Position numbers and translations under genes: made by a program. Shown here piece by piece: positions 21,937 to 40,015 of a DNA stretch of 64,000 bases (positions within the stretch are counted from its first letter, which is position 1; every line of letters begins with the position of its first letter). Origin of the DNA: Bradyrhizobium sp. 195. GTDB lineage: Bacteria > Pseudomonadota > Alphaproteobacteria > Rhizobiales > Xanthobacteraceae. The notes under the pieces were generated by a model. It saw nothing but the letters and a program-made list of their open reading frames with translations. It was not told where the DNA came from and searched no databases. The DNA lies in contig NZ_CP082161.1 of NCBI RefSeq assembly GCF_023101665.1, positions 4,836,001-4,900,000 of the forward strand, written 5' to 3'.

Positions 21937-24900
21937 TCATAGCTGCTGCACGTCCACCACGCCCGCGACCGCCTTGATCGCGCCGGCGATCTGCGGCGAG
22001 ACCTTGAAGCGGCCGGGCAGCTTCATCTCGACTTCGGTCTCGAGGTCGAGCATCATCACCAGTGAGACCTCGCCATCGCCGTTCGAGCGTGGTGCGATGC
22101 CCGGACTGCCGATCTTTGGCGCGGCGCCATTCGATGCGGCCATGTCGGGGCTGGCCAACCGCTTGGCAATCGACTCCAGCGGCTTGGTGTCGCGCACAAA
22201 GATGCGCAGCCCCTTCTGCGTCTTGGCGGCGGCATCATCCAGCGGCTCCGCATGCAGCACGCGGGCGCGCACGTCCTCGCCCTGGAGCTCGGCCCCGAGC
22301 TGCAGCAGCACGGCGGCGCCCGGCTCCAGCACATCGCGATATTGCGCGAGGCCTTCGGAGAACAGCACCGCCTCGAAATGGCCGGTCGGATCAGACAGGC
22401 CCATGATGCCCATCTTGTTGCCGGTCTTGGTGCGCCGTTCCATGCGCGACACCACGGTGGCCGCGACCTTGCCGGCGGTGGCGCCGGTCTTCACGGCGCG
22501 CGAGAATTCGGCCCAGCTCTGCACCCGCAGGCGCTTCAGCACTGTGGCGTAATCGTCGAGCGGATGTCCCGACAGGAAGAATCCGATCGCATCATATTCG
22601 CGGCGCAGCTTTTCGGCCGGCAGCCACGGCTCGATCTGCGGCAGCATGATGGTCGGTGCATCCGCCGACATCCCGAACATGTCGTTCTGGCCGATGGTCT
22701 CGGCCTGATGCGCGCGCTGGCAGGCGGCGAGGATCGAGTCCGCGCCGGCGAAGACGCGGGCGCGGTTCGGCTCCAGCGTGTCGAAGGCGCCGGCGGCGGC
22801 GAGACTTTCGATGATGCGCTTGTTGATCGCGCGCGGATTGACCCGCGCGGCAAAGTCGGCGAGCGAGGTGAACAATCCCCGCTTGGTGCGCTCCTCGATG
22901 ATCTGCTCAATCGCCTGGATGCCGACGCCCTTGAGCGCTGCGAGCGCGTAGTAGATCGTCTTTTCGCCGACCTCGAAGGTCGCGCCGGAGCGGTTGACGT
23001 TCGGCGGCTCGACCTTGATGCCGAGGCGCTGCGCCTCCGAGCGGAATTCAGAGAGCTTGTCGGTGTTGTTGAGATCGAGCGTCATCGACGCCGCGATGAA
23101 CTCCACCGGATAATGCGCCTTCATGTAGGCGGTGTGGTAGGACACCAGCGCATAGGCCGCCGCGTGGCTCTTGTTGAAGCCGTAGTCGGCGAACTTGGCG
23201 AGCAGCTCGAAGATGGTCTCGGCCTGTGCCTTCGGCACGCCGTTCTTCACCGCGCCCGCGACGAAGATGTCGCGCTGCTTGTCCATCTCGGCGCGGATCT
23301 TCTTGCCCATGGCGCGGCGCAGGAGGTCGGCGTCGCCGAGCGAATAGCCCGACATCACCTGCGCGATCTGCATCACCTGTTCCTGGTAGATGATGACGCC
23401 GAAGGTCTCTTTCAGGATCGGCTCCAGCACGGGATGCAGATATTCCGGCTCCTCGTCGCCGTGCTTGCGCGCACAATAGGTCGGGATGTTCGCCATCGGG
23501 CCCGGGCGATACAGCGCGACCAGCGCGATGATGTCCTCGAACCGGTCCGGGCGCATGTCGACCAGCGCGCGCCGCATGCCCTGGCTTTCAACCTGGAACA
23601 CGCCGACCACCTCGCCGCGCGCCAGCATCTGGTAGCTCTCGGCATCGTCGATCGGCAGCGTCGCAAGATCGACGTCGATGTTGCGCGGCTTGAGCAGCTT
23701 GCACGCGACGTCGAGCACGGTCAGCGTCTTCAGGCCGAGGAAGTCGAACTTGACGAGGCCGGCCGGCTCGACCCACTTCATGTTGAACTGGGTCACCGGC
23801 ATGTCGGATTTGGGATCGCGGTAGAGCGGCACGAGCTCGCTCAGGGGCCGATCGCCGATGACGATGCCGGCCGCATGGGTCGAGGCATGGCGCGTCAGGC
23901 CTTCCAGGCGCTGGGCGATGTCGAAGGCGCGCGCGACCACCGGGTCTTCGTCGCGAAACGCCTGGAGCTTTGGCTCGCTCTCGATCGCCGCGGCGAGCGT
24001 CACCGGCGCGGCCGGATTCTGCGGCACGAGTTTTGTGAGTTTGTCGACCTGCCCGTAAGGCATTTGCAGGACGCGGCCGACGTCGCGCAGCACACCGCGC
24101 GCCTGCAGCGTACCGAAGGTGATGATCTGCGCGACCTGGTCGCGGCCGTAGCGCTGCTGCACGTAGCTGATCACCTCGCCGCGGCGGTCCTGGCAGAAGT
24201 CGATGTCGAAGTCCGGCATCGAGACGCGTTCGGGATTGAGGAAGCGCTCGAACAGCAGGCCGAACTTGATCGGATCGAGGTCGGTGATGGTCAGCGCCCA
24301 GGCGACCAGCGAGCCTGCGCCGGAGCCGCGGCCCGGCCCGACCGGAATCCCTTGGCCCTTCGCCCATTTGATGAAGTCGGACACGATCAGGAAGTAGCCC
24401 GCGTATTTCATGCGCATGATGACGTCGAGCTCGAACGCCAGGCGCTTGTTGTAGTCCTCTTCCGTGGTGCCCTGCGACAGGCCGTGGACGCTGAGACGGT
24501 TGGCAAGCCCCGCCTCCGCCTGGCGCTTCAATTCCGCCGACTCGACCGCCGCGGCGTCCGAGCTCTGCGCGGCGCCGACGGTGAAGAACGGCAGGATCGG
24601 CTTGCGCGTCATCGGCCGGAACGAGCAGCGCTCGGCAATCTCCACCGTCGAGGCCAGCGCCTCCGGAATGTCGGCGAACAGCACCGCCATCTCGGCGCGG
24701 GTCTTGAAACGGTGATCGGGCGTGAGCTGCTCGCGCTCGGTCTCCGCGATCAGCCGCCCGCCGGCGATGCAGAGCAGTGCATCATGCGCTTCGTAATCGT
24801 CGGTCGAGGCGAAATACGGCTCGTTGGTCGCAACCAGCGGCAATCCCTTGGCGTAGGCCATGTCGATCAGGCCGCTTTCGACACGCCGCTCCTTGTCGGT

Positions 24901-25440
24901 GTTGTGGCGCTGCAATTCGATGTAGAGGCGGTCGCCGAACAGGCCGGCCAGACGCTCGCAGCGCAGTGCGGCAAGTTCGGCGTGACCGCCGGCAAGCGCC
25001 AGCGAGATCGGCCCGTCCGGTCCGCCCGTCAGCGCGATCAGTCCTTCGGTCTCGCCGTCGAACCAGTCGAGCCTGACGAACGGAGCATGGCTGTCTGGCG
25101 ATTCGAGGAACGCGCGCGAGTTCAGCCGCATCAGGCTGCGATAGCCGCGCTCCTGCGCCGCCAGCAGCACCACGCGCGAGGGCCCCATCGCGTTGCGCGC
25201 GTTCGGATCCTGGTCACCGAAATCGATCGCCAGCTCGCAGCCGACGATCGGCTGGATGCCGGAGCCCGCCATCTTGTCGGAGAACTCCAGCGCACCGAAC
25301 AGATTGTCGGTGTCGGTCAGTGCCAGGGCCGGCTGGTGATCCTTCTTGGCAAGCTCGGCGAGCTTGGCGATCTTGATCGAGCCCTTGAGCAGCGAATAGG
25401 CCGAGTGAACGTGAAGGTGAACAAATCCGGCGCTCGGCAT
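21937..25440 (-). CDS. dnaE: DNA polymerase III alpha subunit
   Basis: Replicative polymerase catalytic subunit, 1167 residues, similar in length to E. coli DnaE. The N-terminal PHP domain begins FVHLHVHSAYSLLKG. The polymerase palm has the catalytic acidic motif PDFDIDFCQDRR, followed by YGRDQVAQIITFGT. The thumb/finger region, a tandem HhH region (GIQAIEQIIEER) and a C-terminal OB fold follow. It is the main DnaE and not the error-prone ImuB-associated DnaE2, judging from the full PHP and C-terminal domains and the absence of imuA/imuB neighbours. Confidence 0.96.
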   Translation of the reverse strand: MPSAGFVHLHVHSAYSLLKGSIKIAKLAELAKKDHQPALALTDTDNLFGALEFSDKMAGSGIQPIVGCELAIDFGDQDPNARNAMGPSRVVLLAAQERGYRSLMRLNSRAFLESPDSHAPFVRLDWFDGETEGLIALTGGPDGPISLALAGGHAELAALRCERLAGLFGDRLYIELQRHNTDKERRVESGLIDMAYAKGLPLVATNEPYFASTDDYEAHDALLCIAGGRLIAETEREQLTPDHRFKTRAEMAVLFADIPEALASTVEIAERCSFRPMTRKPILPFFTVGAAQSSDAAAVESAELKRQAEAGLANRLSVHGLSQGTTEEDYNKRLAFELDVIMRMKYAGYFLIVSDFIKWAKGQGIPVGPGRGSGAGSLVAWALTITDLDPIKFGLLFERFLNPERVSMPDFDIDFCQDRRGEVISYVQQRYGRDQVAQIITFGTLQARGVLRDVGRVLQMPYGQVDKLTKLVPQNPAAPVTLAAAIESEPKLQAFRDEDPVVARAFDIAQRLEGLTRHASTHAAGIVIGDRPLSELVPLYRDPKSDMPVTQFNMKWVEPAGLVKFDFLGLKTLTVLDVACKLLKPRNIDVDLATLPIDDAESYQMLARGEVVGVFQVESQGMRRALVDMRPDRFEDIIALVALYRPGPMANIPTYCARKHGDEEPEYLHPVLEPILKETFGVIIYQEQVMQIAQVMSGYSLGDADLLRRAMGKKIRAEMDKQRDIFVAGAVKNGVPKAQAETIFELLAKFADYGFNKSHAAAYALVSYHTAYMKAHYPVEFIAASMTLDLNNTDKLSEFRSEAQRLGIKVEPPNVNRSGATFEVGEKTIYYALAALKGVGIQAIEQIIEERTKRGLFTSLADFAARVNPRAINKRIIESLAAAGAFDTLEPNRARVFAGADSILAACQRAHQAETIGQNDMFGMSADAPTIMLPQIEPWLPAEKLRREYDAIGFFLSGHPLDDYATVLKRLRVQSWAEFSRAVKTGATAGKVAATVVSRMERRTKTGNKMGIMGLSDPTGHFEAVLFSEGLAQYRDVLEPGAAVLLQLGAELQGEDVRARVLHAEPLDDAAAKTQKGLRIFVRDTKPLESIAKRLASPDMAASNGAAPKIGSPGIAPRSNGDGEVSLVMMLDLETEVEMKLPGRFKVSPQIAGAIKAVAGVVDVQQL

Positions 25441-25655
25441 GGTCGCGTGACGGCCTCTTGCAGATGAGATGGAGCGGTCGCCGGCTCTTCAAGGCATCAT
25501 GCCCTCGCCCGGCCGACTCGCCTCACAATGGTGAGGTGTCACTGCTCCAGAGTCCACGCCGGAGCGGCCGATTCGCCGCGTCGTCCCGCTTTTCCCCAAG
25601 GGGCCACCGACAAGAGGAGCACCGGTTCACAAGCCGCCGCCCTGGAGCTGCGGAA

Positions 25656-25754
25656 TCAGAGCTGCGGTATGACCTGGGCCCAGATGGCGATCATCCCTAC
25701 GAACAGCGTGATGGACGCCAGGGCTGCAGCTTCTTCCACGAAAATCTTGAACAT
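25656..25754 (-). CDS. 32-residue membrane microprotein, putatively SOS-induced
   Basis: A small frame on the minus strand from ATG 25754 to TGA 25656. The product starts MFKIFVEEAAALASITLF, is hydrophobic from about residue 9 to 28, and ends WAQVIPQL: one membrane-spanning helix with an acidic pair (EE) near the N-terminus. A good ribosome-binding site (GGGAGCGAG) lies 3-11 bases upstream. Two LexA-type boxes overlap a likely promoter just upstream. The size, single helix and LexA control resemble SidA, the 29-residue SOS-induced division inhibitor of Caulobacter. I cannot claim sequence homology. It lies between dnaE and an omp gene, all on the same strand. Confidence 0.7.
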   Translation of the reverse strand: MFKIFVEEAAALASITLFVGMIAIWAQVIPQL

Positions 25755-25772
25755 GATCTCGCTCCCTTGCTA

Positions 25773-25816
25773 GAACGTATGAAGAACATTGTTCTCATTT
25801 CGTTCTCAGGAGTCAA
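25773..25816 (-). promoter_or_regulatory. Promoter with two overlapping LexA (SOS) boxes
   Basis: Two boxes fit the alphaproteobacterial LexA site (GTTC-N7-GTTC): 25791-25805 reads GTTC-TCATTTC-GTTC on the plus strand, and 25773-25787 reads GAAC-GTATGAA-GAAC, the same motif on the other strand. On the minus strand, TTGACT (25816-25811) and AACAAT (25793-25788) are 17 bases apart and form a good sigma-70 promoter. One box covers the spacer and -10, the other the expected start site. The transcript would begin about 25-30 bases before the microprotein ATG. Confidence 0.7.
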
Positions 25817-25865
25817 GCCACCTCAACCATCCCGCAATCGAATGGTTAACTCGTTGAATCCGCAC

Positions 25866-25901
25866 AATAAAAAAAGCCCCGGCGCAAGGCCGGGGCTTTC
25901 G
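25866..25901 (-). terminator. Rho-independent terminator of the Omp25/31-like gene
   Basis: Perfect 11-bp stem (25873-25883 with 25889-25899, 5-base loop GCAAG). On the minus strand it runs into a T-rich tail (complement of 25866-25875). It lies about 30 bases after the stop of the outer-membrane protein gene and separates it from the microprotein promoter. Confidence 0.85.
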
Positions 25902-25928
25902 ACAAACGCCCGAAGAGAGCGATTGATA

Positions 25929-26648
25929 TCAGTAACGGCCGAGGATCGGGCCGCCGAACTTGTAGTTCAGGCGAACGAGGCCCATGTCCACGTCCTGCTT
26001 GACGCGCTCGACAGCGCCACTGGCAAAGGTGACGTCGTGGTCGCCGAGGAAGATGTGATTGTACTCGACGCCGACCGACCAGTTCGGAGCAAAGCCAAAC
26101 TCCAGGCCCGCGCCGACCGTGCCACCCCAACGGGTCTCATCGGCCCGGTCGAGGTTCGCACCCGTGACAGCGCTGTAAACGTCGTACTTGTTGCTGACGA
26201 CGGCCGCACCGCCCTTCGCGTAGAGCAGGACGTTGTTCCAGGCATAGCCAACCTGGCCGGTGATCAGACCGAACGAGTCGACACGCGTGCGGTTCCGGAA
26301 GCCGGTGATGCCGCTGATGTTGTCGCCCGAGAAGTCGGCCCAGTTGCCCTGGCCTTCGACGCCGAACACGAACTGGCCGGACTGCAAGCGGTAACCGACC
26401 TGACCACCGACCGTGCCGCCAGTGGAATTGTGGGAGCCTTCGGGGCCGAAGCCGACGAGGTTCCACGAGGTATCGGCCGAACCGCCGCCGCCGTTGATAC
26501 CGATGTAGAAGCCGCTCCAGTCGTAGATCGCGGCGACCATCGCTGGCGCCTTGGTGTAGGGCCGTGCCGCGAGATCAGCAGCCAGCGCCGGCGCAGTCGC
26601 GCTCAGCGCGACAAGGCTCACAGCAGCAAGCAACAAATTCTTCTTCAT
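25929..26648 (-). CDS. Outer-membrane beta-barrel protein, Omp25/Omp31 type
   Basis: Small porin-like or structural outer-membrane protein of 239 residues. The signal peptide is MKKNLLLAAVSLVALSATAPALAAD. The mature start contains the family pattern YDWSGFYIGINGGGG. Alternating amphipathic strands follow, with a C-terminal segment VRLNYKFGGPILGRY. Bradyrhizobium genomes carry many paralogues of this type. It is monocistronic, with a strong terminator after the stop. Confidence 0.9.
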   Translation of the reverse strand: MKKNLLLAAVSLVALSATAPALAADLAARPYTKAPAMVAAIYDWSGFYIGINGGGGSADTSWNLVGFGPEGSHNSTGGTVGGQVGYRLQSGQFVFGVEGQGNWADFSGDNISGITGFRNRTRVDSFGLITGQVGYAWNNVLLYAKGGAAVVSNKYDVYSAVTGANLDRADETRWGGTVGAGLEFGFAPNWSVGVEYNHIFLGDHDVTFASGAVERVKQDVDMGLVRLNYKFGGPILGRY

Positions 26649-38022: not shown

Positions 38023-38727
38023 CTATTCGAGCTCGACCACCTGGCCGTTCGACAGTGAGACGCGCCGGTCCATGCGGCCGGCGAGCTCCATGTTGTGAGT
38101 CGCAATCAGCATCGAGACCTTGGTTGCCTTGACCAGCTGCATCAGCGCCTGGAAGACGTGATCGGCGGTGTGCGGATCGAGATTGCCGGTCGGCTCGTCC
38201 GCAAACAGCACGCGCGGCGCATTGGCAACCGCGCGCGCGATTGCGACGCGCTGCTGCTCGCCGCCAGACAACTCGGCGGGGCGATGGGTGATGCGGTCGC
38301 CGAGACCGAGATAGCCAAGGATCTCCTTGGCGCGCTTGACGCTCTCGGACTTCTTGAGGCCGCGGATCATCTGCGGCATCATGACGTTCTCTAGCGCAGA
38401 GAACTCCGGCAGCAGCCGGTGCGACTGGTAGACGAAGCCGATATCGGTACGGCGCAGCTGCGTGCGCTCGATGTCGGGCAGCTGCGAGGTCGGCGCGCCC
38501 GAGACATAGACCTCGCCGGAATCCGGCGCTTCGAGCAGCCCCGCGATGTGCAACAGCGTCGATTTGCCCGAGCCCGACGGCGCGACCAGCGCGACCGATT
38601 GGCCGGCCCAGAGCGCGAGCTTGGCGCCGTCGAGGATCGTCAGCGGCACCTCGCCCTGCAAGTACTGCCGCTTTATCTCGTGGAGATAAATGACCGGTAC
38701 ATCTTCAGCCCCCTGCTGCTGCTCCAT
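38023..38727 (-). CDS. lolD: Lipoprotein-releasing ABC transporter ATPase LolD
   Basis: ATPase of the LolCDE complex, which extracts lipoproteins from the inner membrane for delivery to the outer membrane. In its 234 residues are Walker A (APSGSGKST), a Q-loop ([10 protein letters not shown], as in MacB/LolD), signature LSGGEQQR, Walker B ([12 protein letters not shown]) and switch His (ATHNMEL). The permease gene ends seven bases upstream, so the two form an operon with possible inclusion of proS. Confidence 0.94.
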
Positions 38728-38734
38728 CAGCCCC

Positions 38735-40015
38735 TCACTCGTACCGGAGCGCTTCGACGGGATCGAGGCGCGCGGCGCGCCACGACGGATACAGCGTCGC
38801 CAGGAACGACAGCGTCAGCGCCATGATGACGACGGCCGTGGTCTCGCCGACGTCGATCTCGGCGGGCAGTTTCGACAGGAAATAGAGTTCCGGCGAGAAC
38901 AGCTCTGTGCTGGTCAGCCAGGACAGGAATTGCCTGATCGATTCGATGTTGAGGCAGATCACGAGGCCGACGAAGAAGCCGACCATCGTGCCGACCACGC
39001 CGATCGAGGCGCCCGTGATCAGGAAGATCCGCATGATCGATCCTTGCGAGGCGCCCATCGTGCGCAGGATCGCGATGTCGCTGCCCTTGTCCTTCACTAG
39101 CATGATCAGGCCGGACACGATGTTCAGCGCCGCGACCAGCACGATCATGGTCAGGATCAGGAACATCACGTTGCGCTCGACCTGGAGCGCGTTGAAGAAG
39201 GTCGAGTTGCGCTGCCGCCAATCGACCAGGAAGACCGGACGGCCCGCGGCCTCCGTCACCGCCTTGCGGAAGGCGTCGATCTTGTCGGGGTTGGTGGTGA
39301 ACACCTCGATCGAGGTGACGTCGTTGCTGCGGTTGAAATAGGCCTGCGCTTCGGCGAGCGGCATGAACACGAAGCCGAGATCGTATTCGGACATGCCGAT
39401 TTCGAACACCGCGGCGATCTTGTACGGCTTGATGCGCGGCGTCGTGCCCATCGGCGTGACCGCGCCCTTCGGCGCCACCAGCGTGATGCTGTCGCCGGCA
39501 TGCAGCGAGAGCTGGTCGGCGAGGCGCCGGCCGATCGCAACACCCTGCCCGTCGTCGAAGCCCTCGAGCGAGCCCTGCTTGATGTTCTTGGCGATCGAGG
39601 TGAGGTTGTTGAGGTCGTCGGAGCGAATGCCGCGCACCAGCACGCCAGAGGCGTTCCACGGCGATGACGCCAGCGCCTGACCATCGACCACGGGCGCGGC
39701 GAGCCGGATGCCCTGGACCTGGCTGAGGCGGTCGGCGACGTCCTTCCAGTCGGTCAGCGGCGATTCCAGCGGCTGGACCAGGATGTGGCCGTTCAGCCCC
39801 AGGATCTTGTCGAGCAGCTCTTTGCGGAAGCCGTTCATGACGGCCATGACGATGATCAGCGTCGCCACGCCCAGCATGATGCCGAGAAAGGAGAACCCGG
39901 CGATGACCGAGATGAATCCCTCCTTGCGGCGCGCCCGCAAATAGCGCCCCGACAGCATCCACTCGAATGGCGCAAAAGGCGCGGTCTGCACGGTTTCGGT
40001 CATGGTCTCATCCAT
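38735..40015 (-). CDS. lolC: Lipoprotein-releasing ABC transporter permease LolC/LolE
   Basis: Inner-membrane MacB/FtsX-type permease with 426 residues. One N-terminal membrane segment ([23 protein letters not shown]) is followed by a large periplasmic domain (about 50-260) and then three C-terminal membrane helices with the FtsX-family region. The N-terminal pattern [20 protein letters not shown] is typical of LolC/E in alphaproteobacteria. With only one permease gene present, it may work as a homodimer (LolF type). A start four codons later (MTETVQ) is possible. Confidence 0.93.

Follow-up and report, generated by a model that had tools for sequence, protein, structure and literature searches.

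A 32-codon reading frame upstream of dnaE in Bradyrhizobium sp. 195 is very probably an orthologue of sidA, as judged from its sequence together with its chromosomal position. The frame lies in the window, the whole stretch of 64,000 nucleotides that was analysed (positions 4,836,001 to 4,900,000 of contig NZ_CP082161.1). SidA of Caulobacter crescentus is a 29-residue, LexA-controlled division inhibitor of the inner membrane, which spans the membrane with one helix and binds FtsW (PMC4211646, in part). A sequence-only reading of the DNA had proposed a SidA-type peptide, and the conservation of both the frame and its LexA boxes supports that interpretation.

The frame (25656 to 25754, minus strand, TGA stop included) runs from an ATG at 25754 to a TGA at 25656 and encodes the peptide MFKIFVEEAAALASITLFVGMIAIWAQVIPQL. 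A ribosome-binding site, AAGGGAG (25762 to 25768, minus strand), is located 7 nt ahead of the start codon. The peptide has one predicted hydrophobic segment, with a maximum Kyte-Doolittle mean of 2.08 over a 19-residue window, and AlphaFold2, supplied with the single sequence, predicted one helix from residue 2 to residue 31 (mean pLDDT 93). With 32 residues, the peptide is about as long as SidA, and it would likewise have a single membrane helix. Pfam and NCBIfam models gave no match to it or to other members of the family (four members searched), and Rfam at gathering scores gave no match anywhere in the window. Among 43 distinct same-genus sequences of the frame, pN/pS was 0.12, and the variable columns numbered 13, 3 and 28 of 31 at the first, second and third codon positions, respectively. 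The frame is therefore a protein under purifying selection.

The region before the frame holds a promoter, TTGACT (25816-25811) and AACAAT (25793-25788) separated by a 17-nt spacer (25788 to 25816, minus strand), found by a motif scan. It is the sole sigma-70-like match in 25400-25960, where shuffled sequences average 0.1, and no promoter-like site was seen on the opposite strand of the same interval. The promoter overlaps a distal LexA box, GAACGAAATGAGAAC on the coding strand (25791 to 25805, minus strand), and abuts a proximal one, GTTCTTCATACGTTC on the coding strand (25773 to 25787, minus strand), the two being spaced 18 bp start to start. Both are exact matches to the motif, and the complete dyad, GAACN7GAACN3GTTCN7GTTC, is seen at a single place in the window and in 0 of 100 shuffles. 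The frame with its ribosome-binding site, the single-pass topology (by prediction) and the two boxes overlapping the promoter thus all stand as the sequence-only reading had them. Two exact, conserved putative boxes are what a LexA-controlled promoter would be expected to carry. Single LexA boxes were dropped as evidence because their counts are near or below those of the controls (the window has 4 where 1.82 were expected; genome-wide there are 199, against 239 for the reversed control pattern). Use of this motif in the genome is supported by a box of the same type before the genome's own lexA: the only match to the Pfam domain for DNA binding by LexA begins about 100 nt beyond that box.

Loss of the frame in related genomes would have counted against the sequence-only reading, but the idea survived: the frame was present in all 36 same-genus genomes and in 37 of 60 genomes altogether in that search. 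A larger sample of the family contained it in 318 of 391 genomes and 35 of 47 genera, with one same-genus genome (G388) giving no match. Using a broader Rhizobiales profile (A2), it was found in 109 of 297 genomes of the order, representing 46 of 122 genera. Searched across the class, the Rhizobiales profile matched only 6 of 385 genomes, two of them from its own genus, and a positional approach via dnaE was therefore used instead.

Conservation extends to the upstream LexA boxes, which that reading had proposed as a check. The double box was detected by script in 44 of 45 same-genus loci and by eye in the 45th (L014), which the script had missed because the upstream sequence asked for exceeded that supplied. 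All 35 loci from other genera of the family carry an exact box, 28 having two or more and 24 the dyad with the 3-nt gap. Outside the family, 21 of 24 order places have an exact box no more than 110 nt from the match, the remaining three being L108, L119 and L120. In a further set of 78 order places, many of them with weak peptide scores, an exact box was found within 100 nt of the chosen start in 54, compared with 7 of 3794 control windows taken from the same loci.

Nine of the 24 boxless places in this set are f44/g115 frames that precede dnaE and whose second half-site is broken; another four are f44 copies in other positions, which leaves eleven. Of the eleven, two (L213 and L226, both f11) are boxed before a longer frame and one (L232) has its box at -101; the start-codon rule gave short or internal starts in L213 and L226, and 54 of 78 is therefore a conservative count. 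Some of the eleven, such as L188, L209 and L236, look spurious. In the f44/g115 frames upstream of dnaE (L163-L168, L170, L174 and L177) the second half of the LexA box is degenerate (GAACAAAACAAATAC type), and LexA control may have been lost or changed, to judge from these letters.

Several lineage variants were seen in the same material. In six f11 loci (L211, L215, L219, L221, L228 and L229) the SidA-like helix forms the C-terminus of a frame of 98-114 residues; these extended frames conserve a PTVRDFT stretch and are preceded by a LexA box, and L226 looks alike when the longer frame is read. Second copies of the f44/g115 peptide (L178, L179, L202 and L235) have neither a LexA box nor dnaE, and their neighbours include genes for SSB (L178) and for ERF-type recombination (L202) and, as a weak match, a sliding clamp (L235), which suggests that these copies lie in phage-like regions. 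In L233, L237 and L238 (f24/g108), overlapping boxes 11 bp apart with a common middle half-site (GAACN7GAACN7GAAC) precede the microprotein; no dnaE was found nearby. Carriage of the microprotein on a mobile element was considered and set aside: the window peptide had no match in 72,556 plasmid records, nor did the f44/g115 peptides in phage or plasmid collections.

The next gene downstream is dnaE (21937 to 25440, minus strand), encoding the DNA polymerase III alpha subunit with its PHP domain (Pfam PF07733, PF17657, PF02811 and PF14579). It begins 215 nt after the stop codon of the small frame, and no terminator-like site was found in the interval. A terminator-like hairpin detected by a sequence scan (25872 to 25900, minus strand) lies on the other side of the sidA promoter, after an outer-membrane beta-barrel gene (25929 to 26648, minus strand; PF13505) that provides context only. 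Of 178 loci collected, 160 encode a DnaE N-terminus on one strand or the other. Within the set of 78 order places, 62 have dnaE downstream in the same orientation, at gaps of 20-631 nt, and 16 have no same-strand dnaE downstream within the fetched stretch. Eight of these 16 are boxed, one of them (L169) running into the end of its contig after about 420 nt of downstream sequence. The other seven boxed loci (L193, L206, L217, L224, L233, L237 and L238) have no dnaE that could be found within about 1.5 kb downstream, indicating that the microprotein is separable from dnaE.

Genes for a lolD-like and a lolC/E-like ABC transporter, names that we assume for them, are found about 12 kb upstream of the frame on the same strand (38023 to 40015, minus strand; PF00005, and PF12704 with PF02687), again as context only. 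In many relatives from other genera the lolD-like gene is within the fetched locus itself. Such a match was present in 3 of 40 genus, 21 of 35 family, 56 of 103 order, 15 of 27 named and 17 of 29 class loci, counted anywhere in the locus on either strand, with the proviso that other ABC ATPases could match. The distance in the window perhaps reflects a local insertion or rearrangement in its genus.

Named genomes were reached through Caulobacter DivK, and dnaE was found in 27 of 28. These 27 are mostly Caulobacter relatives, together with Roseibium, Stappia, Methyloceanibacter and a Parvibaculaceae genome. Upstream of dnaE, 25 of the 27 have a hydrophobic frame of 28 to 45 codons; no such frame was seen there in L352 and L373. 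An exact LexA box accompanies 16 of the 25 frames by script, and the other nine have degenerate boxes that were read by eye and confirmed. Two boxes at an 18-bp pitch, the same as in the window, are present in 7 of 9 Caulobacter-group promoters with degenerate boxes. In Caulobacter the frame is mostly 29 codons long (for example L360). The probable closeness of sidA to dnaE in strain NA1000 follows from locus tags, in that we take CC1926 and CCNA_02004, which belong to two numbering systems, to be neighbours. The former is dnaE (PMC1839093, in part) and the latter is sidA (PMC10769358, in part). The frame upstream of dnaE in Caulobacter was identified as SidA because of its 29-codon length, its LexA boxes and the proximity of these locus tags.

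The chromosomal position upstream of dnaE is accordingly the same in the window, in its relatives and in the relatives of Caulobacter. This common place of the two genes did not figure in the sequence-only reading. In a wider class sample, which was not random but consisted of the best 69 DnaE places of 279 genomes with a match, a boxed hydrophobic frame was found in 17 loci (two of them from the same order as the window) and an exact box in 18, compared with 0.8 boxed loci expected from base shuffles. A comparable position has been reported in Sinorhizobium meliloti, where sORF25 is a small frame detected by Ribo-seq in the dnaE1 5'-UTR (PMC10117765, in part); it is possibly the same gene.

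For the comparison of sequences, profiles were built for the genus (A1), the Rhizobiales (A2) and the Caulobacteraceae (A3). HHalign aligned A2 and A1 with A3 in register, with P values of 7e-5 and 5e-5, respectively, and probabilities of only 63 and 69%. The residues common to the window peptide and the Caulobacter frame are E-AL-S-FV-M-AQ. When the columns of A3 were permuted within hydropathy classes, scores as high were obtained with A2 in 0 of 300 and then 4 of 1200 permutations and with A1 in 0 of 1200. The sequence-only reading had seen no similarity to SidA; a weak one is apparent from the in-register alignment with a LexA-boxed, mostly 29-residue peptide encoded upstream of dnaE in Caulobacter. 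Searches of whole genomes gave weak and in part negative results. With A2, searched against 26 of the 28 named genomes, the frame upstream of dnaE was the best genome-wide match in 5, namely Roseibium (E 8e-7), Maricaulis (E 1e-3) and, weakly, C. ginsengisoli and two Brevundimonas (E 0.035 to 0.14), and in the other 21 it was missed or outranked by other places. The reverse search with A3 matched the place upstream of dnaE in 0 of 29 judgeable Rhizobiales genomes (30 searched; G222 left out). Sequence similarity by itself is insufficient to establish orthology with SidA, which becomes likely when it is combined with position, regulation, length and topology. Weighing against orthology, besides these searches, are the boxed frames in no more than 17 of 69 class loci, the 6 of 385 class genomes matched by the Rhizobiales profile and the broken half-site of the f44/g115 group.

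We consider it likely that the window peptide acts as SidA does, being derepressed on cleavage of LexA, inserted in the membrane and holding FtsW/FtsI/FtsN inactive until repair. Regulation by LexA is suggested by sequence and position, and a block of division would be expected by analogy with Caulobacter; we infer LexA binding, induction, membrane insertion and FtsW as the target. In undamaged cells, LexA would occupy the two boxes across the promoter and keep the gene silent. Upon DNA damage, activated RecA would promote cleavage of LexA and the 32-residue peptide would be made, entering the inner membrane as a single helix. There it would bind the FtsW/FtsI/FtsN septal peptidoglycan complex and keep it inactive, such that division is delayed until repair is done. 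A double operator would suit a product that stops growth. Read-through into dnaE, or its co-induction, may be an extra effect.

The size, the single helix and the LexA boxes would fit equally well a LexA-controlled membrane microprotein that is no division inhibitor, acting instead on another envelope or respiratory target or causing a loss of membrane potential as TisB does. TisB of E. coli is likewise a LexA-controlled membrane peptide, of 29 residues; it acts as a type I toxin that depolarises the membrane and is paired with an antisense RNA antitoxin, features that would set it apart from the window peptide. A function other than division inhibition would also agree with the few residues that the peptide has in common with SidA. 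However, its chromosomal place and in-register alignment are those of a proven division inhibitor, and we regard this explanation as unlikely. A type I toxin-antitoxin system in particular is opposed by the occurrence of the frame in 36 of 36 same-genus genomes, by 0 matches in 72,556 plasmid records and by the lack of any Rfam match in the window, which is unlike a mobile module.

Separate origins, with SOS microproteins arising independently before dnaE in Rhizobiales and Caulobacterales, would be in keeping with the weak sequence scores and the negative reverse search. Such a coincidence appears very improbable in view of the same place and strand, the 18-bp pitch that 7 of 9 Caulobacter-group promoters share with the two boxes of the window, profile scores reached by only 4 (A2) and 0 (A1) of 1200 permutations, and the Maricaulis and Roseibium frames found by the Rhizobiales profile. 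We assign slightly less probability still to a leader peptide or uORF that regulates dnaE, the LexA boxes really controlling dnaE itself. It is true that dnaE shares the strand of the frame, that no terminator-like site was found to separate the two, and that in Sinorhizobium sORF25 is translated in the dnaE1 5'-UTR, a uORF role having been suggested for some such frames (PMC10117765, in part). Nevertheless, selection acts at the amino-acid level, the distance to dnaE ranges between 20 and 631 nt, and similar boxed frames are kept in seven loci without dnaE within about 1.5 kb downstream. The constant coupling to dnaE expected of a leader peptide was not found, as 16 of 78 order places have no same-strand dnaE downstream. 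Moreover, SidA, which seems to be encoded at the same site, has been proven to act in trans as a protein (PMC4211646, in part).

A second Caulobacter inhibitor, DidA, resembles what is proposed here in being a DNA-damage-induced, single-helix inhibitor of the FtsW/FtsI/FtsN complex but is unlike the window peptide in its 71 residues, its LexA-independent induction by DriD and its binding to FtsN (PMC4211646, in part). SidA, with LexA control, about 30 residues and one membrane helix, is alike by prediction (PMC4211646, in part). Differences from SidA are the length (32 compared with 29 residues), a W-AQ-x-x-PQ tail that is conserved within the genus, EE rather than RE at the membrane entry, and the opposite orientation of the proximal LexA box. 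YneA (B. subtilis), SosA (S. aureus), ChiZ (M. tuberculosis) and DivS (C. glutamicum) are larger proteins of other phyla, for which we know of no sequence relation to the window peptide. All four inhibit division after induction by DNA damage, and most have been described as small proteins of the membrane. FtsW is bound by YneA, and SidA, SosA and ChiZ are likewise placed on it in AlphaFold 3 models of low confidence, with SidA on TM7 (PMC13396833, in part).

In the literature, SidA is discussed for Caulobacter, and the matches listed contain no report of it elsewhere, an earlier remark being possible; a search for a LexA-controlled microprotein in Bradyrhizobium likewise found none. The main text of a paper on small ORFs of Bradyrhizobium japonicum does not contain dnaE, LexA or SOS (PMC5082802). 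Taken together, SidA is probably an old alphaproteobacterial DNA-damage checkpoint, tied to dnaE and LexA in several orders and with lineage variants: an inverted double operator as in the window, tandem boxes in Caulobacter relatives, N-terminally extended forms of about 100 residues, and boxless copies beside phage-like ssb or ERF genes.

For the arrest of division after DNA damage in alphaproteobacteria other than Caulobacter, the literature searched gave no named effector. A wide SidA family would offer an immediate candidate for soil symbionts and many further bacteria, in the form of one small gene that is directly testable. It would tie division arrest to the locus of the replicative polymerase, and the alignment of its diverse relatives suggests which residues may be important for the proposed contact with FtsW.
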